This document shows positions 3,922 through 22,129 of a stretch of DNA of 23,101 nt, one piece after another. The stretch lies in IMG/VR virus record IMGVR_UViG_3300042879_002127, positions 1 to 23,101 of that record. One strand, written 5' to 3'. Source of the stretch: a virus. The first letter of the stretch is position 1, and each line of letters opens with the position of its first letter. The translations under genes and the position numbers were made by a program. The notes under the pieces were generated by a model that did not search any database, had not been told where the DNA came from, and was given only the letters and a program-made list of their open reading frames with translations.

Positions 3922-3927
3922 TACATT

Positions 3928-3935
3928 TATTTATG
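3928..3935 (-). promoter_or_regulatory. Late-promoter-like octamer before gp13
   Basis: The minus strand reads CATAAATA, then 6 bases, then the gp13 ATG. The octamer differs from the T4 late consensus TATAAATA only in the first base, which is variable in marine T4-like phages. It lies in the gap after the cysteine-rich gene. Promoter function is inferred. Confidence 0.5.
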
Positions 3936-3940
3936 CACAT

Positions 3941-4534
3941 TTATTCCTTCTCTATTTTTCTTTTTTCTTCAGCTTCAATTATTTTATCAAAAATTTTTTG
4001 TAATTCTTCTGGAGCATCTGGAGTAGTTATAACAACATTTTCAACATCTTCAATACTTAATTTTTCTATTTTATTTTTTCTATTATCTGGATTATTTGTT
4101 TCAGATATAGTACATGGAATATAATTAGTAAACCCTGGCATTTTAAGAGGGCAATTTAATTTTGGAAAATCTAATTTACTATATTCATCATCAGAACCAT
4201 TGAGCCATGTTTGTTTTCTATCTCCGCAACCACAACCACCGCAAAAAAATTTTCCTTCTGTAGTAGATTTGCTCAAATGCTCACATGGAGGAATTGAGCC
4301 TCCATTACCGAAGCAGCTCAAAACTCGTAATTGTTTTGTTTCTTTTTCTACTTTTTTATTAGTAAATCCCTTTGAAATAAGAGACATAGCATAACTTTGA
4401 ATCATATTAAATGGGTTTGGTATAGTCATAGGTTCTTCCCTTGTGGGAAGCTCTATCTTTTCTACTGGTTTTCTATTAAATAGTAATTTTCCGCTTGAAT
4501 TTTTTCCGCAGTTGCAAGGCTTGTTTTCAGCCAT
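3941..4534 (-). CDS. Cysteine-rich protein of unknown function in the neck/baseplate cluster
   Basis: I do not recognise a family with a known function. The 197-residue protein has four cysteine groups: CNCG at residues 7-10, a CFGNGGSIPPCEH block near the middle, FCGGCGCGDRKQTWL after it, and NCPLKMPGF followed by IPC in the last third. Spacings of CxC, CxxC and CxCG suggest a bound metal (zinc or iron-sulphur) or disulphides. The last 50 residues are charged (Lys/Glu) and probably helical. A GAGG Shine-Dalgarno core stands about 8 bases before the ATG, unlike most neighbours. It starts 10 bases after the stop of the upstream fibre-like gene and precedes gp13 in the same direction. Its place in the cluster suggests a virion or assembly role, but nothing in the sequence proves that. 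Confidence 0.75.
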   Translation of the reverse strand: MAENKPCNCGKNSSGKLLFNRKPVEKIELPTREEPMTIPNPFNMIQSYAMSLISKGFTNKKVEKETKQLRVLSCFGNGGSIPPCEHLSKSTTEGKFFCGGCGCGDRKQTWLNGSDDEYSKLDFPKLNCPLKMPGFTNYIPCTISETNNPDNRKNKIEKLSIEDVENVVITTPDAPEELQKIFDKIIEAEEKRKIEKE

Positions 4535-4544
4535 AATTAAAACC

Positions 4545-5255
4545 TCATATTGTTAAACCATTAATATATTGCACCGAAAAAGTAGATCCTGATAAACCAA
4601 ATTTAATTACTTTTTGAAATAGATTATTATTGTAACTAGTAGTACCAGTTATTTGAGCCGTACTGAATGATATCTTATATCTATCAGCACCGCATATAGA
4701 TTCTGAAACTATTCCAGAAGAATTATCCATCAGTGTTGTATCTTCCGAGCAATCGATATAATCAGTAGTTAAAGATAGTCCAGCATAATATTCTGTATTA
4801 TTTGTAGGACTTATTCTAACAATAGAGTCACTATTTAAGTAAACCCATTGCTTTATTCCAGAATTTAGAGTAGAAAGATACCATCCTTCATTAAAAGTAA
4901 AAGTAACTCCTCCTGTACCAGTATAAGAATATGTTACCATATTTTCATAGGTTAAACCATCTGGATGAGTTTTTGGATAAAGTGGGGTTGCTCCTTCCCA
5001 TGCTGGTCCATCACATGTAGTGCCATTTAATTCATTAAACCATTCTCTTATAAGATTTAAATTTAATGTATTTTGCATTGCAAAAATTTCTTGCAATTCA
5101 TTCAATTCTGAAGCCTGAAGTCTTGTTTTTGGCTTAAATCCAATAAATGCGTAGTTCTTTCTTGGATCTAAATCAACATTCGAACCCCAGAATCTACTAG
5201 AATAAGGATAATTGGTTAAAGGAAATTGGTTTTCGAAAGGATAATTGTTGCTCAT
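4545..5255 (-). CDS. Baseplate or tail-fibre attachment protein, DUF4815-like N-terminus
   Basis: The 236-residue protein has an N-terminal block (PRKNYAFIGFKPKTRLQASE, then LNELQEIFAMQ) like the entry segment of phage fibre and baseplate proteins that read roughly F.PG..LQ..ELNELQ. I relate it to DUF4815-type proteins by eye only. After this helical start, residues 70-236 are beta-rich with many Thr, Ser, Gly and Tyr. It starts 1 base after the gp8-like stop and precedes the cysteine-rich gene by 10 bases, so it belongs to the same transcript. The position next to gp8 fits a wedge protein that holds a fibre, comparable in place but not in sequence to T4 gp9 or gp10. Confidence 0.6.
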   Translation of the reverse strand: MSNNYPFENQFPLTNYPYSSRFWGSNVDLDPRKNYAFIGFKPKTRLQASELNELQEIFAMQNTLNLNLIREWFNELNGTTCDGPAWEGATPLYPKTHPDGLTYENMVTYSYTGTGGVTFTFNEGWYLSTLNSGIKQWVYLNSDSIVRISPTNNTEYYAGLSLTTDYIDCSEDTTLMDNSSGIVSESICGADRYKISFSTAQITGTTSYNNNLFQKVIKFGLSGSTFSVQYINGLTI

Positions 5256-5256
5256 T

Positions 5257-7128
5257 TTAGATATTGAAAATTAAAGTTACTGTGTTCTTGTCTTGATTAA
5301 ACGCACTATCTGTTGCAAATAAAACATCACAATCTGACATATTTATTTGAGATGTAGTTACTCCATTTATTCGAATAACTCCATATGTTGCTCCTTGTGT
5401 CTGGAAGAAATATGTTCCTCCACTTGTCAAGCCATAAGCATTATATTTGCTAATTTCAAATGTTCCACTAGTTTGTCCAGAAGAAACATTATCAAAAGCA
5501 AAATTATAACTAAAAACTGGTTTGCCTGGTTCAAATTGAGTTTCATCAGATCCAATTTTTTTATTCTGCGAATCTCTATTGACTAGATAATTTGTAGAAA
5601 TATCACTAGATACTATATCTGTTGCTACAGTATCAAATGATATACTATTCAAATCTCCCTGTATTACTTCAATAGAAGCAGTAGTACTGGTCTTTAAATA
5701 TTCCGTAAAGTCTCTATAGATCTTTGGTGCAAATTTATAGCCAGAGGAATTTTTAATATTTGAAGTTAGGAATGCACTTGAGAATGAATATGTTGCTCCT
5801 ATTGTAGGAATAAGTGTTTGTAGATTTGCACTAGTAATAGATGCAGAAATAGAAATCTTATCTGTTCTAAGTAAATCCATTATAGAAAGATATGATTCTT
5901 GAGTTTTTGTAATTGGTGATAAATTAAATTGTATTGAAGCTAAAAGATTAGAAAAATCACCAGAAGATGCAGAACCAGTACAATCGATAACATTTACTGC
6001 CTCTGCATAAGTTATATTACTACTTGATAGTTGATTTTCAAGTTCAATACCAGTTACTTTCCATCCATAATTTCCACCAATATATTCAGTTTTTAAATAT
6101 CCTTTACATGAGCCTAATGTCCCATCAACTTTAATATTTAATTCTGGTCGTTCAGCACTCACATAATATGATGTAGACGAAACATCATTTATTATTGCAT
6201 TTAATATACATCCAGATGGAATAGATGTTAAAATTTCATAATTTTTTCTATAGGTGTTGGTTGATGAATAACCAGCAGATCCACCCGAAGCAAATGATAA
6301 GAATGGAGTTACATCTGTATATGATGCCTCACACGGAGTACATCCGCTGGTTGATGAAATATTATAAAATCCACCATATTCTGAACCAGTTATATTTGGT
6401 TTAAATACAGAATGTAAACTTGTTAATTGACCTAGATGGTCACATGACCAAGCATTAGCTACTTTATAAGCTGCTAATATATCTCCAGAAGAATAGGTCT
6501 TATTTGTTATTGGTTCTACAAAAGCTTCTTTAACATATAGGCAACATGTGCCATAAGTGAGGCCAGAAGCACCATGTAATTCGTTTATTGCTGCTGTTGG
6601 TCCAGAATTATCAGCAGTAAATCCTTTAAAGTTTTGCATTCCCTCTATTCCAAAAATTCTAATATAATTTGTAGATAGAGGAGATGGATCATAATTAATT
6701 TTTAGCCACTTATAACCATCATTTGTATCAATTATAGTACCATTAGATCCTGAAGGAGCAAATTTGGATCTTGATGCAAAATTTCTATTGTAAAATTTAT
6801 TTTGACTTGAATTTTCGATACATAAAAACAATTCATTTGTATTTGTATTATAGCATGTACTGCTTGATATGTCTGGGTCCGTAGTATCAAAAACTTTGAA
6901 TGTTTTTCCTTCGTACCAATCGTTTCTTTTAAATGCAGAATTTATATCGCTTAATTTTACCCTTTTAATAAAACTAGAAACATTTGCTATTTTTTTATTT
7001 AATCTCGTATCTTTAGCTTCATATCCGACTGAATCTACACCAAGACCAATGTAAAAATCGTTGGTTAGAGCAGAATTTATAAATTTCTCTATAGCAAAAG
7101 AATATCTAGATGAAGAGTCATTTGGCAT
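5257..7128 (-). CDS. gp8: Baseplate wedge subunit, gp8-like, enlarged
   Basis: gp8 is one of the wedge proteins that surround the baseplate hub. The N-terminal 170 residues fit its plan: an opening RYSFAIEKFINSALTNDFYI, then a stretch leading to FKRNDWYEGKTFKVFDTTDP, a CYNTNTNELFLCIEN strand, and DTNDGYKWLKINYD, which parallels the GDGYVWEYLFEI region of T4 gp8. At 623 residues it is nearly twice T4 gp8 (334); marine T4-like gp8 proteins are also long. The middle holds inserted beta-rich domains with cysteine pairs (SGCTPCEAS, TGSASSGD-type loops). It begins after a 15-base gap containing TATACATA 5 bases before the ATG. The assignment rests on position plus weak motif similarity. Confidence 0.75.
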   Translation of the reverse strand: MPNDSSSRYSFAIEKFINSALTNDFYIGLGVDSVGYEAKDTRLNKKIANVSSFIKRVKLSDINSAFKRNDWYEGKTFKVFDTTDPDISSSTCYNTNTNELFLCIENSSQNKFYNRNFASRSKFAPSGSNGTIIDTNDGYKWLKINYDPSPLSTNYIRIFGIEGMQNFKGFTADNSGPTAAINELHGASGLTYGTCCLYVKEAFVEPITNKTYSSGDILAAYKVANAWSCDHLGQLTSLHSVFKPNITGSEYGGFYNISSTSGCTPCEASYTDVTPFLSFASGGSAGYSSTNTYRKNYEILTSIPSGCILNAIINDVSSTSYYVSAERPELNIKVDGTLGSCKGYLKTEYIGGNYGWKVTGIELENQLSSSNITYAEAVNVIDCTGSASSGDFSNLLASIQFNLSPITKTQESYLSIMDLLRTDKISISASITSANLQTLIPTIGATYSFSSAFLTSNIKNSSGYKFAPKIYRDFTEYLKTSTTASIEVIQGDLNSISFDTVATDIVSSDISTNYLVNRDSQNKKIGSDETQFEPGKPVFSYNFAFDNVSSGQTSGTFEISKYNAYGLTSGGTYFFQTQGATYGVIRINGVTTSQINMSDCDVLFATDSAFNQDKNTVTLIFNI

Positions 7129-7133
7129 ACAAT

Positions 7134-7141
7134 TATGTATA
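7134..7141 (-). promoter_or_regulatory. Late-promoter-like octamer before gp8
   Basis: The minus strand reads TATACATA, 5 bases, then ATG. It differs from TATAAATA by one base and sits in the 15-base gap between the gp7-like stop and gp8. Promoter function is inferred. Confidence 0.42.
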
Positions 7142-7143
7142 GA

Positions 7144-7899
7144 TCAAGAAATTATGATTTCTTTTGGCTCTATGTCCAACGAACTTGTTACTGTACCAGA
7201 GAATAAAGTATTTTCACTATTAACTAAATCAAAATAAAATCCCATTGGTTTAAGTAGAGATATTAAATCATCTTGATATTTTTCATCAATATTTGCTTCT
7301 AATTTTATAGAAAATTCTTGATTATATCTACCATCTGATAATATTTCAGTATTTGTATTGGATTGATTTAATAAAAATGTACCATTTGAACCATATTCAA
7401 TTTTAAAATCATTAAAAGCAGAATTGAAAAAAGTTTGTATGAATATCTTAAAAGATTCTTCTGTACCTTTTTTTTCTATAAATTTTTGTTTATTTGAAAT
7501 TAAAAATTCTCTTAAAATTTTTATATCATTAAAATCAGAAAAATCAAAATTAGAAAATAATGACGAATATATTTTTTTTAATGATTCTTCATTTGTATAA
7601 AATGGATTTTGTAGATTTTCAAAATTTGGATAAAGATCAAGACCGTTTTTTGAAAAAATCCAATTGTATAATTCTTGTACCAAATTTATAGTGTTATATG
7701 AAGAATTATCTTCTGATTCAGTTATTAGCCAAGAAGGAAATTGATTTTGTACTCTATAGGAGTAATTTCTATTATTTCTAACTTCTTGTGTATTATGCGT
7801 TTGGTTTAATATAGCAATTGCATATTCGGCTCCAGCATTTAAATCCAATTCGGCGGGAGTCAGATTTTGATTTTTATTTTGATTAAAAAATAATATCAT
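7144..7899 (-). CDS. Baseplate wedge protein in gp7 position
   Basis: The 251-residue protein lies between gp6 and gp8, where T4 has gp7, but it is far shorter than T4 gp7 (about 1030 residues). The segment IEKKGTEESFKIFIQTFFNS near residues 138-157 resembles a motif (KGTE.SF.FLFR..F) of baseplate proteins related to P2 gpI that I have seen in T4-like marine phages. The N-terminus is rich in Asn and Gln and the rest in Phe, Asn and Lys. The first ATG overlaps the gp6 stop (ATGA), so translation is coupled to gp6. A wedge role is inferred from place and this one motif; a profile search against gp7 and tail protein I families would decide. Confidence 0.5.
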   Translation of the reverse strand: MILFFNQNKNQNLTPAELDLNAGAEYAIAILNQTHNTQEVRNNRNYSYRVQNQFPSWLITESEDNSSYNTINLVQELYNWIFSKNGLDLYPNFENLQNPFYTNEESLKKIYSSLFSNFDFSDFNDIKILREFLISNKQKFIEKKGTEESFKIFIQTFFNSAFNDFKIEYGSNGTFLLNQSNTNTEILSDGRYNQEFSIKLEANIDEKYQDDLISLLKPMGFYFDLVNSENTLFSGTVTSSLDIEPKEIIIS

Positions 7900-9623
7900 G
7901 TGATTGTAACTGAATCTACTTCATAATCTATAGCCATATTGTTTATAGCTGTTATGGAAGAGCTTGCTGGTGTTATAGTAAATGTTAAAGAATCATTTGT
8001 AGTAATATGATCATATATTTGAATAAACCCAGTAGTAGGATTATAAATTCCCACTTTACTGTTTATAACTGTATCCGATGAATCTCTAGCTTCAATATAT
8101 TTGAATCCATTTAATTCTGGAACTTCAATAGTAGAATTTACAAATTTAATTTGTGATGTTGATAAATTTGTTGTTATAAAATTGGTGTATAAAGATTGAA
8201 TTTCGTTATAGAATCTTATTATTTTTTGTGTTGATAAATCGAGAGTTTTATCAAAAATAATTGTTATACTAGAATCAGATACTGAAATATTAGAATCAAT
8301 TCCAACACAAATGTTGATTAATTCAGATTTAGAAATATTATTAAAAAATAATTTCTTTGAATAAATATCTGTTATACTATTTGTTATTTGAGATTGTAAA
8401 TTTGCTTTAGTATTTGTAGTTTTTTTGGTATCCAACTTACACGATAAAGCTATTTTTCCTATAAAGTCTTGTGATTCAATATAATCAAGATTTAATCCAA
8501 CGATCATTTTTGCTTTTAATAATTGAATCAATGAAGAAACTTCATTAGATGTAACGCCCAAATCTATTATTGAAAAATATACTGTTCCATAACGATCATT
8601 ATATTCTTGACCATCAAAAACCGATACTCTTTGATCAATTTCTGTTATAGTTGGGAGTAATCCAGAATTTGCTATTACATATTCAAAATCGCTCTTTGTA
8701 ACTAGAGATGAATAACTATATGATCTAGGACTAATATACTTTAAATATTCATTGTCAATTTGTGAATAACCGCCAGAAGAAGTATTTGAGCTTATTGATA
8801 TAGATGGTATATTTAAAGAACCATTTTGCACAAATTGTGAAATAGAATTAAATGATGTATTATTTCCTTTTTCTCCATTGGAAACAACATAAGATACCGT
8901 TATAGTATCAGTAGGAAGCACAGATTTTCCTATAGTTGCATCAGATGATTGAATATTTTTACCAAATTTTACGAATATTTTTGAACCTTTATTTACAGTA
9001 AAAAATATTTTTGATGTTTCATTTGTTCCTATTATTGGTTCATTTGTATAATTAGTCCAATATTCATCATTAATATTTACAACAATTGTTCTAATATCAA
9101 CATTAGAATCTGGTAATTCTATTTCCTGATTATCATAATCTACAGTTGGAATTAAATTTTTAACTAATTTAGAACCAGAATAAAATTGTAATGTTGTTGA
9201 AATATCAACGGTTGTTCTTGGACCAACATAATAAAAATTTATTAAATTATTATTTGAATTTTTATTTTGTAAAACGGCAAATCTATCGATTTCAGCAACA
9301 GAGCTATTAATCTTACTAAACGATACAAGACAAGTTGAAGATTTGTATCTATTGGCAGTAAAACCATTTGTCTGTAATAATTTTACCAAAGAACTTGTTT
9401 TTTGAGCACTATCAATAAAACTTTCATTATTAAGAGCATGCAAATAATGCAACCAAATTAAATTGTTATATGTAAATATCCCCAGCAACATATCAATTGC
9501 TGTACCTTCACTATTAAAATCAAAAGTATTTGCGTAACTAGTTGATTTTAAATATGTTCTTAGATTTTCTTTTAGATCATTATAATCAAGATTGATAAGA
9601 TCTATATTTTTTGGTTCATTCAT
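7896..9623 (-). CDS. gp6: Baseplate wedge subunit, gp6-like (baseplate J family)
   Basis: gp6 builds the dimeric inner ring of the baseplate wedges. The N-terminal block (DYNDLKENLRTYLKST, FDFNSEGTAIDMLLGIFTYN, NNESFIDSAQKTSSLVKLLQ) is the characteristic start of the gp6/baseplate-J family. A later segment (SPRSYSYSSLVTKSDFEYVI) matches the conserved 'APR.Y..Q.RAVT..DYE' region. It has 575 residues against 660 in T4. It follows gp25, as in other T4-like phages, after only 4 bases. The octamer AATAAATA stands 5 bases before the ATG, inside the end of gp25. There is no Shine-Dalgarno site. An ATG 4 bases further in (ATGAATG) is in another frame. Confidence 0.93.
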   Translation of the reverse strand: MNEPKNIDLINLDYNDLKENLRTYLKSTSYANTFDFNSEGTAIDMLLGIFTYNNLIWLHYLHALNNESFIDSAQKTSSLVKLLQTNGFTANRYKSSTCLVSFSKINSSVAEIDRFAVLQNKNSNNNLINFYYVGPRTTVDISTTLQFYSGSKLVKNLIPTVDYDNQEIELPDSNVDIRTIVVNINDEYWTNYTNEPIIGTNETSKIFFTVNKGSKIFVKFGKNIQSSDATIGKSVLPTDTITVSYVVSNGEKGNNTSFNSISQFVQNGSLNIPSISISSNTSSGGYSQIDNEYLKYISPRSYSYSSLVTKSDFEYVIANSGLLPTITEIDQRVSVFDGQEYNDRYGTVYFSIIDLGVTSNEVSSLIQLLKAKMIVGLNLDYIESQDFIGKIALSCKLDTKKTTNTKANLQSQITNSITDIYSKKLFFNNISKSELINICVGIDSNISVSDSSITIIFDKTLDLSTQKIIRFYNEIQSLYTNFITTNLSTSQIKFVNSTIEVPELNGFKYIEARDSSDTVINSKVGIYNPTTGFIQIYDHITTNDSLTFTITPASSSITAINNMAIDYEVDSVTIT

Positions 9624-9627
9624 AAAA

Positions 9628-10005
9628 TTATTTATTTAAATAAAATTTGAACGAAGAATTAGTCAATGAAGAAGAATCGGAATTTTTGCTATAATTGACA
9701 TTAAAATAGATTTTTCTATTAAAAATATCAGATCTATCCACAGAAAATGCAATAGTTTGTAATCCTTTTATAAGTAATTTACATTTTGATTCAAGATAAT
9801 TTAATAAATAAATTTGTCTAGATTTACTATTGTTGAATTTTAATTCATCTAGTGCAGAGCCAATATTTTTATTAAATCTAAAACCATTAATTTCAGTTAC
9901 ACATATATTTTTTATTTGTTGTTTTACAAAAAATGTTTGTGAAATGCTATTTATGTCGTTTTGAGCATTCGTTCTAAAGTAAATATCTAAATCCTTTAAG
10001 CTCAT
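9628..10005 (-). CDS. gp25: Baseplate wedge subunit, gp25-like
   Basis: gp25 is the small wedge protein with the fold shared by T4 gp25 and P2 gpW. The 125-residue length (T4: 132) and the sequence both fit: an N-terminal LKDLDIYFRTNAQNDI, then VKQQIKNICVTEINGFRFNK and NIGSALDELKF. This is the family pattern of a helix, 'I..L..T..GE..F...IGS.L' and a C-terminal strand pair (IYFNVNYS). It overlaps the hub C-terminal gene by 4 bases (ATGA) and is followed after 4 bases by gp6. A full TATAAATA lies 7 bases upstream of the ATG, within the upstream gene. Confidence 0.88.
   Translation of the reverse strand: MSLKDLDIYFRTNAQNDINSISQTFFVKQQIKNICVTEINGFRFNKNIGSALDELKFNNSKSRQIYLLNYLESKCKLLIKGLQTIAFSVDRSDIFNRKIYFNVNYSKNSDSSSLTNSSFKFYLNK
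9629..9636 (-). promoter_or_regulatory. Late-promoter-like octamer before gp6
   Basis: The minus strand reads AATAAATA, 5 bases (ATTTT), then the gp6 ATG. It lies inside the last codons of gp25. Promoter function is inferred from position and likeness to the T4 late consensus. Confidence 0.48.
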
Positions 10006-10721
10006 GTCTGTATATTTATATCTTGAATATTTGATTTAAAAGAATTAAAGAAACCAGAATTTGGAAGAGCAGATAATATTAAAGTAGTTTCATGATGTCT
10101 ATCTTTAAAAATTCTATGAGACATACTTAAAACTAACCATTTTCCATTTAATTTACGATCTGCTATTTGATATTCTGGATGGGGAGGATCAATTATTTCA
10201 ACAATATTACCAGGCCAAACTCTAAATGTTCCAGTTACTCTTATTTTAATTTTATAAGCATCTAATAAAGTTTTAAATGCTCCGCGCATAAGAGGAACTT
10301 TTAAATCAGTATTCCAAAATGTTGCATTTTTTGTTGCTATTTTTAATAGTTTTGGATATTTAGTTCCAACTATGGGGCAATTGCAACTAAAAACAGCATC
10401 TGGATCTGAAAAATTACATCCAAGGTACTCATATCCCAATTCGGTTTCTAAAAATGTGCAACCATTTAAACTTTTAAATGCAGTATCTATATCAATATTT
10501 GATGGTTCTGGTTCTTTTGGTCTAAATGTTATTCCCGGTAACCATTCGCCATCTAAATCTTTAAAAAATAAATCTTCGCATTGGTTTATTGTTGAAATTT
10601 TTCCGCCAACTGCTCCAGGATTTGCACATTTATAGTTCTTGTGCTCTGCATATTTTTCATTTATTTGCCCAACAAGACCCGGAGCTTGTATTAAAGATTG
10701 TAAAATAAAGTTGCTAGACAT
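10002..10721 (-). CDS. Baseplate hub, C-terminal component (late-control-D-like domain)
   Basis: The 239-residue protein from the ATG at 10719-10721 ends in a block (VTGTFRVWPGNIVEIIDPP, then IADRKLNGKWLVLSMSHRIF and a TTLILS strand). This is the pattern of the last beta domain of phage hub proteins (P2 gpD, T4 gp27 type: 'G.....G..I.I.....DR.L.G.Y.V..V.H'). The N-terminal 110 residues have seven cysteines, including SCNCP. An upstream in-frame TTG start at 10754 is rejected because it would read through the hub stop region and lacks any start signal, whereas AATAAATA stands 5 bases before this ATG. It follows the larger hub gene by 14 bases. I infer that the two genes together make one gp27-like hub. 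Confidence 0.65.
   Translation of the reverse strand: MSSNFILQSLIQAPGLVGQINEKYAEHKNYKCANPGAVGGKISTINQCEDLFFKDLDGEWLPGITFRPKEPEPSNIDIDTAFKSLNGCTFLETELGYEYLGCNFSDPDAVFSCNCPIVGTKYPKLLKIATKNATFWNTDLKVPLMRGAFKTLLDAYKIKIRVTGTFRVWPGNIVEIIDPPHPEYQIADRKLNGKWLVLSMSHRIFKDRHHETTLILSALPNSGFFNSFKSNIQDINIQT
10013..10020 (-). promoter_or_regulatory. Late-promoter octamer TATAAATA before gp25
   Basis: This is an exact T4 late consensus on the minus strand, 7 bases before the gp25 ATG. It lies within the last codons of the hub C-terminal gene. Exact copies also occur by chance inside gp53 (13253-13260) and gp48 (14065-14072), so function is not certain. Confidence 0.45.
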
Positions 10722-10726
10722 AACAA

Positions 10727-10734
10727 TATTTATT
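10727..10734 (-). promoter_or_regulatory. Late-promoter-like octamer before hub C-terminal gene
   Basis: The minus strand reads AATAAATA, 5 bases (TTGTT), then ATG. It fills the 14-base gap after the hub N-terminal gene. Promoter function is inferred. Confidence 0.48.
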
Positions 10735-10735
10735 A

Positions 10736-13156
10736 TTAACAAGTACATCCACAAAGAGCACTAGCAAAAAACGCACAAGTTTCAGACCAACAATTTATAC
10801 AAGTATCATCATAAGATATTACTAGATTATAACAAGCTACATCCACACAGTTTAAAGGATATCCGCTAGATGATTGCTGGCACTCTATTGAAGCATCATA
10901 AATGCAACAGCAATATTGAGGATCAGCTTCAGGTGGAATACAAATAGATTCTGATGCCAATACAGTAGCAGTTAATGCTGTTGATACATCGCAAGTTCCT
11001 TCCTTATCATTAGCAACATCAAAAACATAAATGAACGGCATTAATTCGTATGATTGTCTATTAAAAGTTATTCCTGGTATAGATGCAATATCTATTTGAT
11101 ACATTCTAACTATTTGACCAGCTATTCCATAGTCATATCGATTTGAAAGAGCTGGATGAAATCCGCCAATAGGAACATTAAAAAAGTTTACTGGATAGTC
11201 AGAAACACTAAAATTGGTTCCAGGACCAGCGTAATTTCCTGCATTAGCTGTCGGACCATTAAAAAATTCATTTATATTATAAGCATAAGTTGCATATTCA
11301 AGAGTTGTTCCTATTGGCCAAGCAGATGGATCTTGTTCATCAAAAATTACTGGACTCGGATTCGGTCCACCATCATCTGGCTGAAAAATAGGATCTTCTC
11401 CTTCTTGCACAATTTCATATAAATTTGTGGTAGAAATTCTAGAACCAAAATTAACAGCAAATTTTGGATTTCTAAGAGAAATAGAACTACCCAAAGTAAA
11501 TCCAGAAATACCTGTCGGGAAAAAATTTACTTCTGACCAACCATATTCATATGCAACTCCCTGTCTCCATGTTTGTCCTGGTATTTGTCTAGCACCAGTA
11601 ATTAATGCCCAGAAAGATTCTATAGCTGGCCTATAAATGCAACAAATAACATATTTGTATACATTCCATTTTTCTTTTAATGATCTAAGTTTATAATAAT
11701 GTGCAGTATTTTCTGCATTTATTTTTTTAAATTGAATATATTTTTTTGCAACTTCTTTTAAGCTGTCTCCACCAGCATCTTCTACTATTTCATTTGGATT
11801 TTCTTCCTCTATATCAAACATAGATTGCCAATAATTAGTCGAAGCTCTTGATGAATACTCACTAGAAAGAGTAAAACCAGAATTTGTTCTATAAGTATAG
11901 ATTGGTTCTGAATAAGATGAATTTTCAGTAAAATTATCAAAATAACCATATCCATCGGGATCATAAAATCTTTTTACATATATTGGATCAGATGGTTTTT
12001 CTGGAGGTATTACAATATCATTTAAGTCTAATGGAAAATTTTCAGCCTCTGGTGCATCTGCGACTTTCCATTTTGTAGTAACGCTATCGTAAAAGTTATA
12101 TGTTGATATTGGAGCAAAATCAGTAATATTATAATAGACATTCTTTTTTGTTAAAGAATTTCTTTGATCTAATAAAAATGCAATAGGATCATCTAGATTA
12201 GGATCTATTCTTTCATAATAAGAAGCAAATGCTCCATTGTTTTCCAAATCCATAAATGAAGTTGTATATTGTTCAATGTAATCTATTTTAATTGGAGTAG
12301 ATACAGAACTAATAGGACCACTATATGCTTCTGTTTCTGTTACAGAAAATGTAGAAACAGGATCTGTATCAATCAATTCTCTTACTGAAGCAAAATTAAT
12401 AGTATGCAAGTCCTTCCAGAAAAACATATCTGGAAATGGTTCTTGTGTTGATTCTGTTCCTTGTTTTGTTGAAGTCTCTACTAAAGATGAATCATATAAA
12501 AAAGATCTTTGTTTTGTCTTTTCAGTTGTTATAGGTGGTGTTGATGTAGCATATTCAGAAAGATAATTTAATAATGTTAAAAATTTAGTATTATCAAATC
12601 TTCTTCCTATTGGATAAGTAAGATTTTTATTTTTTAACCAAGCATAATTTGAACTTTTTGTAACCCAAAATTTATCCTGTTGATTTGGAAAATATTGCAG
12701 AAAAATATCTTTTATCCAATTATCAGTATCATTTACTGCTGAAATAAGCTTTATATCTTCTTCAAACTCAAAAGATACTTTTGAGTTTGAAAAATAACAA
12801 CCATCGACAAATTTTAAAGAAATTACTTTTGGAGATTCTTTGGATTGATAATTTGTTAGTCTATTTACTTGGTAGATATAAAAATTATCAAATGTTCTTT
12901 CTTGTCCACTAATATCAATTATTACTATTGTTAATTTATCTTTTCCTGTAAAATTAAAATCTGCTGCTATATCCCCCTGATCTTTTAATATTAGAGTCCC
13001 AGTAGGAACTGTACCCAACATACTTTCTTCTATAATAATATCTTCAAAATAACCAAAACTTTGATTATCTTTAATTATTTCCCATTTAATGTTATCGGGA
13101 TCTCTGCCATGTGTTATGGTTAATTCTTTAATTATAATAGGATCAGCTACTGCCAT
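10736..13156 (-). CDS. Baseplate hub, N-terminal component (gp27-like), cysteine-rich C-terminus
   Basis: The first 200 residues have the hub-protein plan: IIKELTITHGRDPDNIKWEI, an ESMLGTVPTGTLILKDQGDI strand pair, FNFTGKDKLTIVIID, a VISLKFVDGC strand and a helix-rich segment. This resembles gp27-like proteins of T4-like marine phages, in which a tube-like domain opens the protein. At 806 residues it is twice T4 gp27 (391), the excess being Tyr/Ser/Pro-rich inserts between residues 200 and 700. The final 90 residues hold 14 cysteines, including CCC and a CGCTC end just before the stop. The family's usual last beta domain is missing and seems to be supplied by the next gene. The start overlaps gp53 by 14 bases. 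The hub role is well supported by context and moderately by sequence. Confidence 0.7.
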   Translation of the reverse strand: MAVADPIIIKELTITHGRDPDNIKWEIIKDNQSFGYFEDIIIEESMLGTVPTGTLILKDQGDIAADFNFTGKDKLTIVIIDISGQERTFDNFYIYQVNRLTNYQSKESPKVISLKFVDGCYFSNSKVSFEFEEDIKLISAVNDTDNWIKDIFLQYFPNQQDKFWVTKSSNYAWLKNKNLTYPIGRRFDNTKFLTLLNYLSEYATSTPPITTEKTKQRSFLYDSSLVETSTKQGTESTQEPFPDMFFWKDLHTINFASVRELIDTDPVSTFSVTETEAYSGPISSVSTPIKIDYIEQYTTSFMDLENNGAFASYYERIDPNLDDPIAFLLDQRNSLTKKNVYYNITDFAPISTYNFYDSVTTKWKVADAPEAENFPLDLNDIVIPPEKPSDPIYVKRFYDPDGYGYFDNFTENSSYSEPIYTYRTNSGFTLSSEYSSRASTNYWQSMFDIEEENPNEIVEDAGGDSLKEVAKKYIQFKKINAENTAHYYKLRSLKEKWNVYKYVICCIYRPAIESFWALITGARQIPGQTWRQGVAYEYGWSEVNFFPTGISGFTLGSSISLRNPKFAVNFGSRISTTNLYEIVQEGEDPIFQPDDGGPNPSPVIFDEQDPSAWPIGTTLEYATYAYNINEFFNGPTANAGNYAGPGTNFSVSDYPVNFFNVPIGGFHPALSNRYDYGIAGQIVRMYQIDIASIPGITFNRQSYELMPFIYVFDVANDKEGTCDVSTALTATVLASESICIPPEADPQYCCCIYDASIECQQSSSGYPLNCVDVACYNLVISYDDTCINCWSETCAFFASALCGCTC

Positions 13157-13886: not shown

Positions 13887-13894
13887 TACTTTCC

Positions 13895-14683: not shown

Positions 14684-14695
14684 TTTTTTTTCTTT

Positions 14696-14703
14696 AATAT
14701 ATA
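14696..14703 (+). promoter_or_regulatory. Late-promoter-like octamer before gp4 in the 25-bp divergent gap
   Basis: The plus strand reads AATATATA, 5 bases (TTTAC), then the gp4 ATG. It has one mismatch to NATAAATA. The same bases read on the minus strand give TATATATT, about 12 bases before the gp48 ATG. Both divergent operons must therefore start within 14684-14708 or inside the opposite gene. Function is inferred. Confidence 0.38.
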
Positions 14704-14708
14704 TTTAC

Positions 14709-15137
14709 ATGGCATATAAGACAAAATTTACTCCACAAAACATAAAAAAATATGTTGGTAATTTGGATAAAATTTTTTGCAAATCTTTGTGGGAAAGAAA
14801 ATTATGCAAGTATTTTGATTCACAAGAAAATATAATTAAGTGGTGTTACGAATGTATAAAAATACCTTACATATCTCCTGTTGATAATAAAAAACACAAT
14901 TACTATCCTGATTTTTTAGTTCTTCTTAAAGAAAAAAATGGAAAAGAAAAAACTTTAATTGTTGAAGTAAAACCAGAAAAACAAACAGAAGCTCCAAAAA
15001 ATATTAAAACTAAATCATATAAAAATGAAATGAAAACATTTTTAGTAAATGATGCTAAATGGAAAGCAGCTAAAAATCTTTGCGAGAATAACAGTTGGAA
15101 TTTTAAAATACTAACAGAAAAAAATTTATTCAGATGA
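14709..15137 (+). CDS. gp4: Head completion protein, gp4-like (nuclease fold)
   Basis: T4 gp4 (also called 50/65) completes the packaged head before tail joining. The 142-residue length (T4: 150) and sequence agree: CKSLWERKLCKYFDSQENII, IPYISPVDNKKHNYYPDFLV and LIVEVKPEKQTEAP. Glu30, Asp68 and the pair Glu86-x-Lys88 form the E...D...ExK set of the PD-(D/E)xK nuclease fold that this family shares with TnsA, so the active site looks intact. It opens the plus-strand group, and its stop overlaps the next start (ATGA). No Shine-Dalgarno site is present, and AATATATA lies 5 bases before the ATG. Confidence 0.93.
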   Translation: MAYKTKFTPQNIKKYVGNLDKIFCKSLWERKLCKYFDSQENIIKWCYECIKIPYISPVDNKKHNYYPDFLVLLKEKNGKEKTLIVEVKPEKQTEAPKNIKTKSYKNEMKTFLVNDAKWKAAKNLCENNSWNFKILTEKNLFR

Positions 15138-15769: not shown

Positions 15770-15795
15770 TATCAAATATATTTAAGATTTAAACT

Positions 15796-16482: not shown

Positions 16483-16511
16483 ATCATATAGATTTATTAG
16501 TTTATTACAAG

Positions 16512-17307: not shown

Positions 17308-17310
17308 TAT

Positions 17311-17332
17311 CTAATATTTAAAAAAATATTAG
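17311..17332. other. AT-rich palindrome across the gp32 stop codon
   Basis: CTAATATTT, AAAA, AAATATTAG form a 9-bp inverted repeat. Its right arm includes the gp32 stop (17329-17331). With the adjacent terminator it makes a two-hairpin boundary, and it may protect mRNA 3' ends. Function is not shown. Confidence 0.6.
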
Positions 17333-18201
17333 TCTTCTTTAGCCAGTCGCTTGAAGTACTCAAGCGCATCTTCATCCTCGTCAGGCTTTGGAGCCTTACG
17401 AGCAGCAGCAGCCTCAACATCGTCCTCATCTTCCGCTCTCTTTGCGGCAGGGGCAACGCTGCGAATGTCGCCACCGAGAACATCATTGAGCTTCTTCTTG
17501 AGTTCGTCATATGACTTGAACTCACCAGGAGCAACAAAGTCCTGAAGCTTGTAAAGAGTCTTCCAGAGCTTTTCTAGCTTCTCATCATCGCCCTTGTAGA
17601 GTTCGCTAGCACCATCAAACTCAGACTTATCGTAGTTGGTGTAACCAGCAACCTTACGAATCTTTAGCTTGAAGTTAGCACCCTTCCAGAAGTCGAATGG
17701 GTTGATGGCTTCTTCGTCTTTGAACTGAGGCTGCATGGCCTCCTGGACCTTCTGGAAGATCTTAGTCCCGTACTTGAAGAGGAACACCTTACCTTCGTTC
17801 TGGGGGTTGGAGGGATCGCTAACAACCAGAATGTTGCTGATATAGGTTAGCTTACGCTTACGGGTACGAGCAAGATCCTTATCCTTCTCAACTCCGCTAT
17901 TCCAGAGTTCACTGTTGGCTTCGCAGATCGGACACTTCTGGCCGATGGTGGTCGGGCAGTTATCGATTAGCCAGCCACCCTTGCCCTGAAAGCCGTGTGA
18001 GTAGACCTTGGCCCACGGAACATCTTCACCTTCACACGCAGGCAGGAAGCGAATAACGGCATAGCCATTGCCAGCCTTATCAACTTCCGGTCGCCAGAAC
18101 CGATCATCCTTGTAATCGGCAGTCTTGTTTAGGTCTTCGATCTTCTTGGTTAGATCTTCAATGCTTGACTTCGAACGCTTCTTAAAATCGCTAAATGACA
18201 T
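17329..18201 (-). CDS. gp32: Single-stranded DNA-binding protein, gp32-like
   Basis: gp32 coats single-stranded DNA in replication, recombination and repair. The 290-residue protein (T4: 301) has all three parts. The N-terminal basic cooperativity motif is KKRSKSS (residues 7-13). The zinc site has His69, Cys82, Cys90 and Cys93, with the T4-like H-x12-C and C-x2-C spacing. The C-terminus is acidic and includes DEDEDALEYFKRLAKED, which recruits replication partners in T4. An AAGGAG Shine-Dalgarno sequence stands 5 bases before the ATG, with its own sigma70-like promoter upstream. Composition is near-balanced, and every Ile codon I read is ATC or ATT, never ATA, unlike the virion genes around it. 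It lies directly after gp33, as in other T4-like phages. Confidence 0.97.
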   Translation of the reverse strand: MSFSDFKKRSKSSIEDLTKKIEDLNKTADYKDDRFWRPEVDKAGNGYAVIRFLPACEGEDVPWAKVYSHGFQGKGGWLIDNCPTTIGQKCPICEANSELWNSGVEKDKDLARTRKRKLTYISNILVVSDPSNPQNEGKVFLFKYGTKIFQKVQEAMQPQFKDEEAINPFDFWKGANFKLKIRKVAGYTNYDKSEFDGASELYKGDDEKLEKLWKTLYKLQDFVAPGEFKSYDELKKKLNDVLGGDIRSVAPAAKRAEDEDDVEAAAARKAPKPDEDEDALEYFKRLAKED

Positions 18202-18206
18202 ATAGT

Positions 18207-18237
18207 CTCCTTATATTAACCCAAGGAACTCCCTTGG
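18207..18237 (-). promoter_or_regulatory. gp32 leader: Shine-Dalgarno plus hairpin, possible translational operator
   Basis: On the minus strand CCAAGG, GAGTT, CCTTGG (18237-18221) is a 6-bp hairpin ending 8 bases before the AAGGAG Shine-Dalgarno sequence (18212-18207). TTCCTT in its 3' arm is complementary to AAGGAG (one G-U pair), so opening the first hairpin could let the Shine-Dalgarno be masked. T4 gp32 represses its own translation through a leader structure; an equivalent here is inferred. Confidence 0.5.
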
Positions 18238-18247
18238 CCGATGGTGT

Positions 18248-18275
18248 AGTATACCAAAGATTGGTGTTTAGTCAA
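18248..18275 (-). promoter_or_regulatory. Sigma70-like promoter for gp32
   Basis: The minus strand has TTGACT (18275-18270), a 16-base spacer, then TATACT (18253-18248). The -35 box contains the TGA stop of gp33 (18274-18272). The spacer includes the dyad CCAA-TCT-TTGG. The transcript would start about 40 bases before the gp32 ATG. It has one mismatch in each box to the bacterial consensus. Confidence 0.7.
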
Positions 18276-18496
18276 AAAGGAAGTTTGGCCTTTTTGGGTA
18301 ATAGATGCAGATCTCTACCCTCTTCGACTAGTTTTTCGATTATTGGTTTTGTTAAAAGCTTGGATGCGCCCTGCGGTTCCATATTGTAATCTTCACACAA
18401 TTTCAATATGGCATCCATATAAGTTGAATTGTGTTTAGAAACATATTCTATTACAAGCTTCGAAAATTCGTTTTTAAATGTTGGTTCTATTAGCAT
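18272..18496 (-). CDS. gp33: Late transcription coactivator, gp33-like
   Basis: gp33 binds host RNA polymerase and links the late sigma factor gp55 to the sliding clamp gp45 for late transcription in T4. The 74-residue protein has the conserved core STYMDAILKLCEDYNMEPQG and a C-terminus (RDLHLLPKKAKLPF) like gp33 of marine T4-like phages, where it is shorter than in T4 (112). It sits right before gp32, the usual place. The start is the first ATG; upstream on the minus strand lies CTATATAGGGTATTCATT with no clear Shine-Dalgarno site. Its presence means this phage is expected to use gp55/gp33-type late promoters, which bears on the octamers found at several starts here. Confidence 0.85.
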   Translation of the reverse strand: MLIEPTFKNEFSKLVIEYVSKHNSTYMDAILKLCEDYNMEPQGASKLLTKPIIEKLVEEGRDLHLLPKKAKLPF

Positions 18497-18535
18497 AATG
18501 AATACCCTATATAGTTAAGTTAAATTGGAGAAAAT

Positions 18536-19588: not shown

Positions 19589-19589
19589 G

Positions 19590-20843
19590 ATGGCAAAAAA
19601 TAGTAACATTGTTCTTACTAAGACTTTTAGTTCTTATGGTATTAATATAGTTAATACCTATTCTGATTTTGATCTTATTGGAAAAGAACTAATATCAAGT
19701 CCGCTTGTTTATTTTTATAATTCGTTTGGTAAAGCAATATTTGATTATTCTGGAACGGTAAATACGGACGATTTAGATCTTTTAGAACTTTTTTTACAGG
19801 GAATAACAAATGGAAACACTTTTTCTGTTTCTAATGGTTACTATGTAAAAGAACAAGACGGAATAACCTCAAACATAAATGGAATTTATCAGTTTGACGG
19901 TGCTACTGGAAACAATATAATTCTAACTACTGTTATTTCTGCTACTGGTATAAATAATGCGGAATACAGATATGAAAACGAATATTTTACAAATCCACCA
20001 AAGCTTGATCTAAATACTGGATTTACCGGGGATATAGCTTATATAATTAAATCAGTAACTAATAAAGGAGAAATAGTTAAACTAGGTCTTTATGAAGATG
20101 ATTTAATCGAAATATCATATGCAGGAAATACGGCAAATATTGATAGATTAAATGTAGAAAAAGTAGAAAATTCTACAGATGGAGAAGAATTTATTTTTGT
20201 CAAAGAGCCTTTAATAAATGATAATAGAATAGGAACTTGGACAACTATTAATGTTTATACTAGAGGCGATGCCACAACAGAATTATTATCATCTGATAAA
20301 TCCTTATTGGGTTCTTCAAATGTTTTTGATAAAAATGGAAATTTTTTAGCGTGTTATAATAATCAAAACGAACTTCAAAGTTATTTGCGAAAATTTGCTT
20401 ATGCGGATAAAGAAAGTTACTCAATCTGGGGTTATGGCGGATCTTGTAGAACTGTTGCAGTAGAATCAAATGGAATAGGATCTAATTTAGCATATGATAA
20501 AATATATTCAGTAAAATATAATACAAACGGATTTATTATTAATGATATTGTTCGCGGAACTATAGACGTAGAAATAGGCAAAAAAATTCTATTATACCAA
20601 GGACACTTTTCCAATTTTTCTTTAACTCCGGCTCAAATAGTTTTTACCAGAGTAAAGGGGAGTGTGTCTTCTAAAAATTTAATGTCTGAATATTATTTTT
20701 CGAATGGGATTCCCGGAAAAGATAATTCATATACTATATTGACTGTAGATTCTAAAACCCCATCAATATTTTATTATGAAAATTTAAATTCGCCGGATAA
20801 AGGCGGAATGATAAGAGTACTTAGAAATTCTTTTTTAACTTAA
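19590..20843 (+). CDS. Probable virion protein of unknown function
   Basis: I do not recognise a family. The 417-residue protein is rich in Asn, Tyr, Ser, Ile and Gly, with many predicted short strands and GxTG turns. It has no transmembrane segment, signal peptide or enzymatic motif. It follows the fibre-like gene after one base (TAAGATG) and so is cotranscribed and probably coupled. Both proteins look like surface structural components. Its stop codon overlaps, on the opposite strand, the stop of the nucleotidyltransferase-like gene by 2 bases, and no clear hairpin terminator is visible at this convergence. Confidence 0.55.
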   Translation: MAKNSNIVLTKTFSSYGINIVNTYSDFDLIGKELISSPLVYFYNSFGKAIFDYSGTVNTDDLDLLELFLQGITNGNTFSVSNGYYVKEQDGITSNINGIYQFDGATGNNIILTTVISATGINNAEYRYENEYFTNPPKLDLNTGFTGDIAYIIKSVTNKGEIVKLGLYEDDLIEISYAGNTANIDRLNVEKVENSTDGEEFIFVKEPLINDNRIGTWTTINVYTRGDATTELLSSDKSLLGSSNVFDKNGNFLACYNNQNELQSYLRKFAYADKESYSIWGYGGSCRTVAVESNGIGSNLAYDKIYSVKYNTNGFIINDIVRGTIDVEIGKKILLYQGHFSNFSLTPAQIVFTRVKGSVSSKNLMSEYYFSNGIPGKDNSYTILTVDSKTPSIFYYENLNSPDKGGMIRVLRNSFLT

Positions 20844-21550
20844 ATCGACAATTTTTTATCGGTTATTTTAAGGATAAATTCTCTTATCTTATCGATATAT
20901 CCACGATTTCTCAATTCCTTAAAAACTAGATTGTCCTGAGTAAATTCACCACTCTTTGCTATGGCGTGTTTTCTCAGTTTTTGAAATTTTTCTAATAGCT
21001 TCTCTGCTGCTTTTGTATCAGTCGTATTCTCCAAAGCATGATCGATTTGGTAAACAGCATCATCTATTTTTTTCTTTAAAAGATCATCGTGCTCAAAATC
21101 AAGTTCAAGATTTTCTGGCTTAACTACCCATTTTCCAGTCTTCAGAGAATAGACTCCTTGATTCTTGGGAATATTCACCTCTCCCAATTGAGCATATACT
21201 TCTATCTCTGCTCCATAAATTGAGATATCATGGGTCAAAGACCAAATTAACTTTTTATCTTTGAAATATTCTTCGTCTGAACAATTTGGTATCTTCGATT
21301 TGTCTAGAATGATATGGACATCTATATCAGAATCTTCAGTATAATTATAATTTGCATTTCCGCCAGTAAAGACTACATCCTTTACTGCTGAATTTGGTAT
21401 TTCCGCAAATTTTAGCCATTCTTTGGAAATCTCAAGAAGTTTCTTACGAACTTCTTCCTTCAAAAAAATATTTACCCAGAACTTGGGATTAAGTTCGGAG
21501 TGATATTGAAGGGTTAAAGATTCCCTCAAGAATTTGGTCAAATATTGCAT
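20840..21550 (-). CDS. Nucleotidyltransferase-fold protein
   Basis: The 236-residue protein has the polymerase-beta-type nucleotidyltransferase signature FTGGNANYNYTEDSDIDVHI. Gly63-Gly64 stand where the family has GS or GG, Asp75 and Asp77 form the DxD metal pair, and Glu115 or Glu117 in AEIEVYAQ is a candidate third carboxylate. The substrate cannot be told from sequence; such domains transfer nucleotides to RNA, proteins or small molecules, or are inactive. A helical C-terminal half (residues 140-220) could be the substrate-recognition helical bundle. The gene is third in a minus-strand group behind two small virion-like proteins, its start overlapping the preceding stop by one base (TAATG). 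Confidence 0.75.
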   Translation of the reverse strand: MQYLTKFLRESLTLQYHSELNPKFWVNIFLKEEVRKKLLEISKEWLKFAEIPNSAVKDVVFTGGNANYNYTEDSDIDVHIILDKSKIPNCSDEEYFKDKKLIWSLTHDISIYGAEIEVYAQLGEVNIPKNQGVYSLKTGKWVVKPENLELDFEHDDLLKKKIDDAVYQIDHALENTTDTKAAEKLLEKFQKLRKHAIAKSGEFTQDNLVFKELRNRGYIDKIREFILKITDKKLSI

Positions 21551-21861
21551 TAATTGAAACCGATTATAATTAAATTATTGGTAGATGAAAAACCAGCAGG
21601 AGGATTCCACTCGTAAGAAGTGACTTCGAAAGGAATTCTATATGCTTGTTGTGTTCTTGCTGTTCTTATAGTAACAGTACCATTTAATGTTAAACTTCCT
21701 CCACCACCACCATCACTAATAAAAATCATACAATGCTTATGTGGTTTAGTTATTGTTCCACTTGATGCAAATTCAAAACTTGATGCTAATATAGTAAGCA
21801 AAATATCAGCAGCTTTAAAATGCTGCTCTGAAGCATTATAATTTCGTGCTATTGCTTTCAT
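21550..21861 (-). CDS. Small beta-rich protein, related to its upstream neighbour
   Basis: The 103-residue protein has KPHKHCMIFISDGGGGGSLT in the middle and the ending TNNLIIIGFN. The upstream gene (21868-22116) has KHKACMLVASSSASGFTL and ends SSIITFN. The common pattern, KHxxCM, a Gly/Ser loop, an arginine-proline strand (YRIP / VRIP) and the closing I-I-x-F-N, makes the two look like diverged copies. There is no signal peptide or membrane segment. It resembles a small capsid-decorating or fibre-capping beta sandwich in composition only; function is not shown. It begins 6 bases after the upstream stop. Confidence 0.6.
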   Translation of the reverse strand: MKAIARNYNASEQHFKAADILLTILASSFEFASSGTITKPHKHCMIFISDGGGGGSLTLNGTVTIRTARTQQAYRIPFEVTSYEWNPPAGFSSTNNLIIIGFN

Positions 21862-21867
21862 TTTATA

Positions 21868-22116
21868 TCAGTTAAATGTTATTATGGAAGAGTTGGCAGG
21901 TCCAGTCGCTCCATAAATTCTGGCTGGAATATAGCAACTATCGTTGGCTGGAATTCTAACATGAGTTGTATTTAGAACCTGGTCAACTCCTCTAAAATCG
22001 AGAGTAAAGCCAGATGCTGATGATGAGGCAACTAGCATACATGCCTTATGTTTTTGGAATGTAACGCCAGTGGCGGAAGCAAAATTGGTTGTTGATGCTG
22101 CTTTAAAGTTTTCCAT
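21868..22116 (-). CDS. Small beta-rich protein, paralogue of the following gene
   Basis: The 82-residue protein is rich in Ala, Ser and Thr (MENFKAASTTNFASATGVTF) and shares the KHxxCM, VRIP and C-terminal IxFN features with the 103-residue protein encoded at 21550-21861. It is the first gene of its group: an exact TATAAATA lies 5 bases before its ATG, and a terminator for the gene upstream lies just before that. There is no Shine-Dalgarno site. The late-type start and composition suggest a virion protein. Confidence 0.6.
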   Translation of the reverse strand: MENFKAASTTNFASATGVTFQKHKACMLVASSSASGFTLDFRGVDQVLNTTHVRIPANDSCYIPARIYGATGPANSSIITFN

Positions 22117-22121
22117 ATAGC

Positions 22122-22129
22122 TATTTATA
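22122..22129 (-). promoter_or_regulatory. Late-promoter octamer TATAAATA at gene start
   Basis: This is an exact T4 late consensus on the minus strand, 5 bases (GCTAT) before the ATG at 22114-22116. It begins 2 bases after the terminator of the preceding transcript. It is the best single example of the octamer-5-ATG arrangement, because upstream transcription is blocked and a new start is needed. Confidence 0.65.

Follow-up and report, generated by a model that had tools for sequence, protein, structure and literature searches.

What happens at a gene start when a late promoter ends only a few bases before the initiation codon? The question is raised by a 23,101-base fragment of an uncultured T4-like phage (IMG/VR virus record IMGVR_UViG_3300042879_002127, positions 1 to 23,101; GC 31%), hereafter "the window", in which octamers resembling the T4 late promoter lie directly before the ATG of seven genes. 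T4-like phages are common in the ocean, and the late promoters of T4 are a textbook system. We compared these gene starts with those of related contigs and cultured phages, and we think it very probable that gp55-type late promoters give leaderless or near-leaderless mRNAs at such starts, while gp22 and gp23 keep leaders with a Shine-Dalgarno (SD) site.

Octamers before start codons in the window

The window encodes terminase subunits, the neck proteins gp13 and gp14, gp6, a gp25-like protein, hub parts, gp4, a gp19-like tube protein, gp32, and gp33. Its megablast search against 50,697 phage records, a set that may lack very near ones, gave no match; the best terminase matches listed are Melnitz and cyanophages (63-66%), and 46 IMG/VR loci carry a terminase 90-100% identical to that of the window. 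The genes and octamers in question are the following, the spacer being the number of bases between octamer and start codon.

3118-3921, minus strand: gp13-like head-tail adaptor (PHROG 211, E 5.3e-36), predicted near-leaderless (5'-AAUG)
3928-3935, minus strand: octamer CATAAATA before gp13, exact, spacer 6
5257-7128, minus strand: 623-aa gene, no profile match
7134-7141, minus strand: degenerate octamer TATACATA before the 623-aa gene, one mismatch, spacer 5
7896-9623, minus strand: gp6 baseplate wedge (PHROG 219, E 3.5e-45)
9628-10005, minus strand: gp25-like baseplate wedge (weak PHROG 261, E 4.1e-4; no Pfam match)
9629-9636, minus strand: octamer AATAAATA before gp6, exact, spacer 5, overlapping the gp25 stop codon
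10002-10721, minus strand: hub C-terminal gene (weak PHROG 350 tail protein, E 7.7e-5, searched as 10002-10715)
10013-10020, minus strand: octamer TATAAATA before gp25, exact, spacer 7
10727-10734, minus strand: octamer AATAAATA before the hub C-terminal gene, exact, spacer 5
14696-14705, no strand: palindrome AATATATATT between gp4 and a divergent gp48/54-like gene, a degenerate octamer on each strand
14709-15137, plus strand: gp4-like head completion protein (PHROG 218, E 1.1e-48)
21868-22116, minus strand: 82-aa gene from the list of open reading frames (ORFs), function unassigned, predicted 5'-AUG
22122-22129, minus strand: octamer TATAAATA before the 82-aa gene, exact, spacer 5

The coordinates and spacers that a preliminary description of the window had given for the seven octamers all hold; xATAAATA is exact in five of them, and the other two depart from it by one mismatch, with TATACATA before the 623-aa gene and AATATATA before gp4 (14696-14703, spacer 5) in place of NATAAATA. 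Two marks of T4-type late promoters are thus seen, namely the octamer (TATAAATA or xATAAATA) and a place before late structural genes (gp13, gp6, gp25-like, hub, gp4). The name gp8, formerly given to the 623-aa gene, gains no backing from profile searches, its product matching no PHROG (E up to 0.05) and no Pfam profile.

The abutting arrangement, which we call the short form, recurs at orthologous genes when relatives are compared, as had been proposed. It stands before gp13 in all 17 close contigs (window included), whose gp13 N-termini align from residue 1 or nearly so, before gp6 in 12 contigs including the window (exact, spacer 5; three more, G007-G009, have CTAAATA at spacer 5), before gp25 in nine further contigs (eight at spacer 7, one at spacer 4), and before the 82-aa gene in six further contigs, seven with the window. 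For the 623-aa gene, 10 of the 14 close contigs listed have the exact ATAAATA at spacer 4-6, G014 has it at spacer 10, and G001, G002, and G010 have a one-mismatch site resembling that of the window. The hub C-terminal gene has the exact octamer only in the window, G001, and G002 (CTAAATA in G010), and the exact site precedes none of the gp4 orthologues listed, several of whose starts are evidently miscalled. The 25 bases between gp4 and the gp48/54-like gene (14684-14708) hold AATATATATT, whose octamers lie at spacer 5 from gp4 and 14 from the gp48/54-like gene; since it is palindromic, a single element could serve both strands, and an alternating AT core is found there in several relatives.

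ATAAATA occurs 15 times on both strands of the 23.1 kb (22.3 +/- 4.5 in shuffled sequences), somewhat below the one per 1-2 kb per strand estimated earlier. The word is not over-represented, yet 5 of the 27 window starts carry it 5-7 bases before the ATG, where 0.035 would be expected for spacers 4-7 (Poisson P ~4e-10), and the earlier view that position rather than presence is the signal was right. Of the 27 starts, 26 belong to ATG-first ORFs with a minimum length of 60 aa (four carry the word); the last is the hub ATG at 10721, which was added manually because a longer frame masks it in the ORF list.

Spacers in relatives and in cultured phages

Starts were then counted in a close set of 17 contigs including the window, a farther set of seven contigs, and a pelagiphage set consisting of the Pelagibacter phages HTVC008M and Mosig, using our own ORF calls (first ATG, longest frames, mostly non-overlapping). 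Among the 515 distinct starts of the close set, ATAAATA lies at spacer 4-7 in 50, at 8-12 in one, and at 13-22 in 28, the second group beginning at 14; 20 rearrangements of its letters average 2.7 at 4-7, and the two highest, 22 and 8, overlap a shifted ATAAATA. The farther set has 25 of 633 starts at spacer 4-7, nine of them at spacer 4 (rearrangements: mean 2.2, highest 12), and in the pelagiphage set the word precedes 15 of 371 distinct starts at this distance, in 14 cases with a spacer of exactly 5 (mean 0.95, highest 6). In the window and 46 close loci, with 359 distinct upstream sequences, there are 49 occurrences at spacer 5-7 (20, 21, and 8), a single one at 8-13, and 12 at 13-17, and the 20 rearrangements give 0-11 at 5-7, the two largest again overlapping ATAAATA. 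Enrichment is thus confined to spacers 4-7, a range that takes in the 5-7 first proposed, and this positional enrichment, together with conservation in relatives, confirms that the octamer at gene starts is a real module. A first comparison of loci, with 1 of 219 starts at spacer 5-7, had suggested that farther relatives are without the short form; the 25 of 633 starts in fuller contigs dispose of this idea, and the trait is therefore wider than the window's group.

What these counts describe is a core promoter element that keeps a fixed, short distance to the start codon, as in leaderless genes. Within the close contigs, the codon found at spacer 5-7 is ATG in 66 cases, GTG in seven, and TTG in none, all seven GTG belonging to one family and lying deep within a long frame. 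In G018, two divergent short-form genes share 30 bases.

The deposited features of HTVC008M, Mosig, and part of Melnitz allow a comparison with gene starts called independently by others. Over whole genomes, ATAAATA-N5-ATG falls on a deposited coding sequence start in 9 of 9 cases in HTVC008M and 7 of 8 in Mosig (together 16/17), ATAAATA-N6-N7-ATG in 1 of 4 and 0 of 1, and the reversed pattern with N5-N7 has two matches in HTVC008M and one in Mosig. The spacer-5 genes include the baseplate wedge (gp25), tail tube cap, DNA end protector, and tape measure of HTVC008M, and the DNA end protector and tail tube protein of Mosig. The 5' ends predicted for the two phages, at the A of the ATG, would be 6280, 7562, 19456, 31132, 49760, 75559, and 142360 (plus strand) and 18916 and 16007 (minus strand) in HTVC008M, and 60990 and 94129 (plus strand) and 106670, 92996, 92381, 60328, and 24964 (minus strand) in Mosig. 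Three of the four spacer-5 matches in Melnitz are deposited starts (54825, 62263, and 121041, not 129255); its N6-N7 matches at 125263 and 131820 are not, and that at 50064 lies outside the compared stretches. Whole-genome counts of N5-N7 against the reversed pattern are 7/3 in Melnitz and, as raw sequence matches, 3/2 in T4, 3/4 in S-PM2, 2/3 in Syn9, 4/1 in P-HM2, 1/2 in DSL-LC03, and 0/1 in phiM12; P-HM2 may have a few short-form genes. No start lies at spacer 4-7 in 49-kb stretches of S-PM2, Syn9, P-HM2, and DSL-LC03, a weak control because each holds only 6-10 ATAAATA; the phiM12 stretch, with few octamers, has none either, and the Melnitz stretch has one. A count aimed at leaderless starts in a Pelagibacteraceae metagenome-assembled genome (MAG) gave TATAAT-N6-ATG 40 times, against 24 for the reversed pattern.

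Phage-encoded bS21, a candidate helper of leaderless starts, was found in 3 of 40 records (HTVC008M, NC_020484 91237-91392; Mosig, MT647606 9983-10132; Melnitz, MZ577096 35461-35619). It was not found in G018, a contig of 113 kb in which the octamer stands at spacer 4-7 before nine starts. The Mosig annotations also include transfer-messenger RNA and peptide deformylase.

Two arrangements of octamer and leader

SD-like words were sought at -18 to -3. They are present at nearly all starts with the octamer at 13-22 (27/28 close, 17/18 farther, 12/13 pelagiphage), at few starts with the octamer at 4-7 (7/50, 3/25, and 2/15), and at an intermediate share of the other starts (163/435, 277/584, and 185/339), a contrast that is partly forced because, in short-form starts, the octamer takes up the very bases where an SD site would lie. 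Under the same reservation, the short-form starts combine AUG with the lack of an SD site, as leaderless messages do and as was noted earlier for the window. Two working arrangements, with leaders either of 0-3 nt or long enough for an SD site, would leave such a spacer pattern.

The short form is found on gp13, gp6, gp25, the 623-aa gene, and a gene that lies shortly before gp55. For gp22 and gp23, seven close contigs were compared: gp23 has AGGAG with ATAAATA 15-19 bases before the ATG (7/7), and gp22 has CGGAG (7/7) with ATAAATA at 14-17 in four, at 26 in one, and absent in two; gp23, and mostly gp22, would thus use the same octamer 13-22 bases before the ATG, with the SD site in a very short leader. 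SD-like words are also retained by gp18, gp19, and gp23 of HTVC008M. SD starts are in use within the window genome too, as the strong SD site of gp32 indicates:

17329-18201, minus strand: gp32 with strong SD AAGGAGA

The division "low-copy leaderless, high-copy SD" is an impression and not a count, and it was given up as a rule. Against it stand the portal gp20, low-copy in T4, which keeps an SD-like leader in the contigs listed, and gp14 and gp15, which have neither arrangement in the window.

Switches between the two arrangements at gp13

The loci at hand hold 211 gp13 genes, which after removal of 58 duplicates leave 153 unique upstream sequences. Thirty-six are of the short form, with ATAAATA at spacer 5 in 10, 6 in 23, and 8 in three; 70 have the promoter with an SD-like leader (60 exact, 10 xTAAATA), 37 have an SD site only, seven have the promoter beyond 8 without SD, and three have neither, although two of these carry ATACATA at spacer 5. 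The SD-like word is absent from 35 of the 36 short-form starts, where the octamer itself fills the stretch.

A quick tree of 143 gp13 proteins was built, leaving out the short fragment L263 and nine near-identical rows; it carries SH-aLRT support only, its root was not inferred, and the starred branches are to be trusted less. On this tree, six changes are needed to account for the short form, and the starred branches force six. Sister genes illustrate them: L197 reads ATAAATACTATTGAGGAGTATT-ATG and L201, L209, and L210 read ATAAATACTATTA-ATG, the octamer being kept while the leader differs; Mosig has ATAAATA with a 20-base SD leader and its sister L341 ATAAATAGTATT-ATG; L331 has an 18-base SD leader and L347 ATAAATAGTATT-ATG. 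The two promoter-leader forms thus appear to have been exchanged several times, gain and loss not being told apart by the tree. An odd intermediate is seen in the related L194, L196, L199, and L200, with ATAAATA 12 bases from the ATG and no SD-like word.

Predicted transcription starts, upstream terminators, and late machinery

In T4, the late promoter octamer occupies -13 to -6 (PMC1524935, in the part of the text available). A spacer of 5 would accordingly put +1 on the A of the ATG, 6 would leave one leader base, and 7 two, so that the sites at spacers 6 and 7 are better termed near-leaderless (about 1-2 nt). Transcription would begin at the sixth base past the octamer. This base is A in 11 of 14 T4 leaders, 8 of 8 Melnitz leaders, and 22 of 23 spacer-6 gp13 starts, and among 59 gp13 leaders with an SD site it is a purine in 88% (all counts derived from rounded fractions); in the close set, it is A in 9/9 spacer-6 gp13 variants and 4/4 spacer-7 gp25 starts. 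"A at position 6 always" fails as a rule, T or C being found at other starts of spacer 6-7. As expected for an initiator, the base before the ATG of spacer-5 starts is mostly a pyrimidine, in 21/23 close, 11/13 farther, and 13/14 pelagiphage starts (elsewhere 48, 46, and 48%; P 2e-5, 0.009, and 8e-4, the close set being less independent because of its orthologues).

An intrinsic terminator-like hairpin stands just upstream of one octamer of the window:

22135-22160, minus strand: hairpin of 11 pairs (z -3.7), its end 18 bases from the ATG of the 82-aa gene and its T-run directly beside the octamer

Similar hairpins, ending 17-22 bases from the start codon, were found at 6 of the 94 starts of the short form. 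The corresponding figures are 1 of 74 for starts where the promoter has a leader and 2 of 1350 for starts with the octamer in neither range. The six belong to the 82-aa gene (window and G005), a gp3-like gene (G020 and G021), another gene of G021, and the Mosig DNA end protector. A terminator so close upstream leaves little room for a leader in a message begun after it.

The late machinery is present as well, gp33 being encoded in the window as described earlier:

18272-18496, minus strand: gp33-like late transcription coactivator (PHROG 254; PF16805, E 2.8e-16)

Searched with the annotated HTVC008M and Mosig proteins, gp55 was found in 8 of 16 close contigs, which are fragments (G001 included), and in 7 of 7 farther contigs, and not in the window fragment; the pairing of gp55 with gp33 that T4-type late promoters go with is thus spread over the window and its relatives. 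About 100 bases before gp55 lies a conserved gene of 238-242 aa, METTCRLFKLRSGEEVL (G001 36638-37357, that is L087:16638-17357), with a weak PHROG 471 match and a short-form late promoter in nine contigs. By its promoter and its place, this gene may be tied to late sigma expression.

In the mechanism we propose, the octamers would act as gp55/gp33-type late promoters with +1 on the AUG or up to about 3 bases before it, and the resulting mRNAs, with leaders of 0-3 nt, would be translated as leaderless messages. Read-through mRNA, lacking an SD site, would be poorly translated, and the gene would open only when gp55 fires.

Weighing the explanations

Other explanations deserve attention. With a GC content of 31% and 15 copies of the word in the window, chance matches in AT-rich DNA come to mind, and we give them practically no credit in view of P ~4e-10 in the window alone and of the conservation across contigs. 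The octamer could also be an A/U-rich translation enhancer, such as an S1 or 30S standby site, on longer polycistronic mRNAs and no promoter at all, an idea already raised in the preliminary description; A/U-rich unpaired upstream stretches do aid SD-less initiation in many bacteria, and the short-form starts are without SD. It is weakened because sisters of the same gene carry the word 13-23 bases upstream, before an SD leader; moreover, enrichment is specific to ATAAATA and not to its rearrangements, terminator-like hairpins end just upstream of six short-form starts, and the word is that of a known late promoter in the literature as far as its text was available, all of which makes the enhancer very unlikely. 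Genome compaction offers a further route, by which a late promoter in the end of the preceding gene abuts the next ATG by accident; the gene would be read by coupling or re-initiation, and the promoter would serve downstream genes. The tight packing of gp25, gp6, and the hub gene, with the gp6 octamer overlapping the gp25 stop codon, speaks for it, but one would then expect a smooth spread of spacers, whereas the counts drop from 50, 25, and 15 at 4-7 to 1, 3, and 4 at 8-12, which is background, and the 82-aa gene and four other genes stand after terminator-like hairpins. We consider compaction very unlikely.

The reading of the octamers as promoters of leaderless mRNAs meets difficulties of its own. 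Of the seven sites in the window, two are degenerate; the counts at spacers 8-12 stay at background level and do not fall under it (1, 3, and 4 against word means of 2.75, 2.0, and 1.15); spacer 4 occurs (three close and nine farther starts), and so does spacer 8, at three pelagiphage starts, HTVC008M gp13 among them. The sixth base is T in 5 of 5 other spacer-6 variants of the close set, where the A of the ATG comes next, and T or C at three farther or pelagiphage starts of spacer 6-7, so that one base of play must be assumed. A GTG opens a gp53-like frame of G014 (24596-25354, minus strand) 4 bases after ATAAATA; as the sole credible non-ATG case among the close contigs, it makes an exception to the ATG rule. 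Orthologues inflate the counts and P values of the close set, re-initiation after upstream translation is possible in packed clusters such as gp25-gp6, and the 5' ends are deduced from sequence alone by a start-site rule transferred from T4. On balance, position, recurrence, independent gene calls, repeated switches, and terminators speak for a late start at the start codon, as first suggested in the preliminary description. Position, recurrence, conservation at orthologues, and the gp13 switches are there to be seen, as are gp33 in the window and gp55 in its relatives; the 5' ends, leaderless translation, and gp55-gated opening of genes are what we would predict from them.

Other features of the window and its relatives

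Divergent gp33 and a 350-aa gene with an SD site share the palindrome CTATATAG (18497-18535), perhaps an early or middle bidirectional promoter; it is also present in six of the seven close contigs listed, G014 having ATATATAG. The 806-aa and 239-aa genes (10002-13156) each weakly match PHROG 350, with a late promoter octamer between them; the farther relatives G017 and G021 have a single long frame that matches both. Structural genes surround a gene with a nucleotidyltransferase domain (PF01909, 20840-21550), and short-form late promoters precede its orthologue in G021 and a G018 gene that clusters with that orthologue. A tRNA-Ile with anticodon TAT lies at 22653-22727. As clues to the host, genome contigs were searched twice with the large terminase subunit; the first search confirmed no relative, the second gave six loci at 32-59% identity in MAGs of assorted taxa, and no psbA-type protein was found in the 24 records searched, mostly fragments.

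Relation to known systems and significance

The abutting arrangement is a variant of the known T4 late promoter class, itself new; a search of the open-access literature turned up no leaderless late mRNAs described for T4-like phages. T4 late promoters, served by gp55, gp33, and gp45, have the same octamer (TATAAATA) before structural genes, and gp33 and gp55 have their counterparts here. In a 49-kb stretch of T4 with 53 starts, however, the octamer lies 20-29 bases before the ATG in 11 of the 15 starts that have it within 60 bases, and at 4-7 in none of the 53, whereas in the window and its relatives it stands right against the ATG. Bacteria and archaea have leaderless genes that resemble the short form in having a core promoter element a few bases before the AUG and no SD site, but these use host sigma factors or TATA-binding protein. 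The promoters of Thermus phage phiYS40 are, to our knowledge, not of the gp55 type. Its middle and late mRNAs are leaderless (PMC3594737, text available in part), which makes it a precedent for leaderless late phage mRNA in another host and another lineage. Cyanomyoviruses S-PM2 and Syn9 have late promoters with the same motif, NATAAATA (PMC2984593, in part), and differ in having no start at spacer 4-7 in the stretches compared, with the weakness of that control noted above. For gene e and I-TevI of T4, a late promoter near the ribosome-binding site delays translation until late transcription (PMC3014915, in part): an RNA hairpin blocks the longer message and the late one keeps its ribosome-binding site, unlike here.

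It is possible, though we would not yet bet on it, that the late promoter was fused repeatedly to the start codon in several T4-like lineages as a timing and dosage device, low-copy assembly proteins being made only from their own gp55-initiated leaderless mRNAs, as read-through mRNA would offer ribosomes no site, and high-copy capsid and scaffold genes keeping SD leaders behind the same promoter. If so, a single type of promoter would feed two classes of translation in late infection. For pelagimyophages, attempts to predict late promoters are stated to have failed (PMC7029224), and abutting promoters may explain this failure, a link of our own making. The repeated gp13 switches form a natural series on when leaderless and SD starts replace each other, and the two cultured phages provide exact predicted 5' ends, so that the arrangement is directly testable in cultured ocean phages. 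If it holds, start codons in viromes could be called better, and a whole set of late genes would be translated without leaders, which would constrain how the ribosomes of the host behave.

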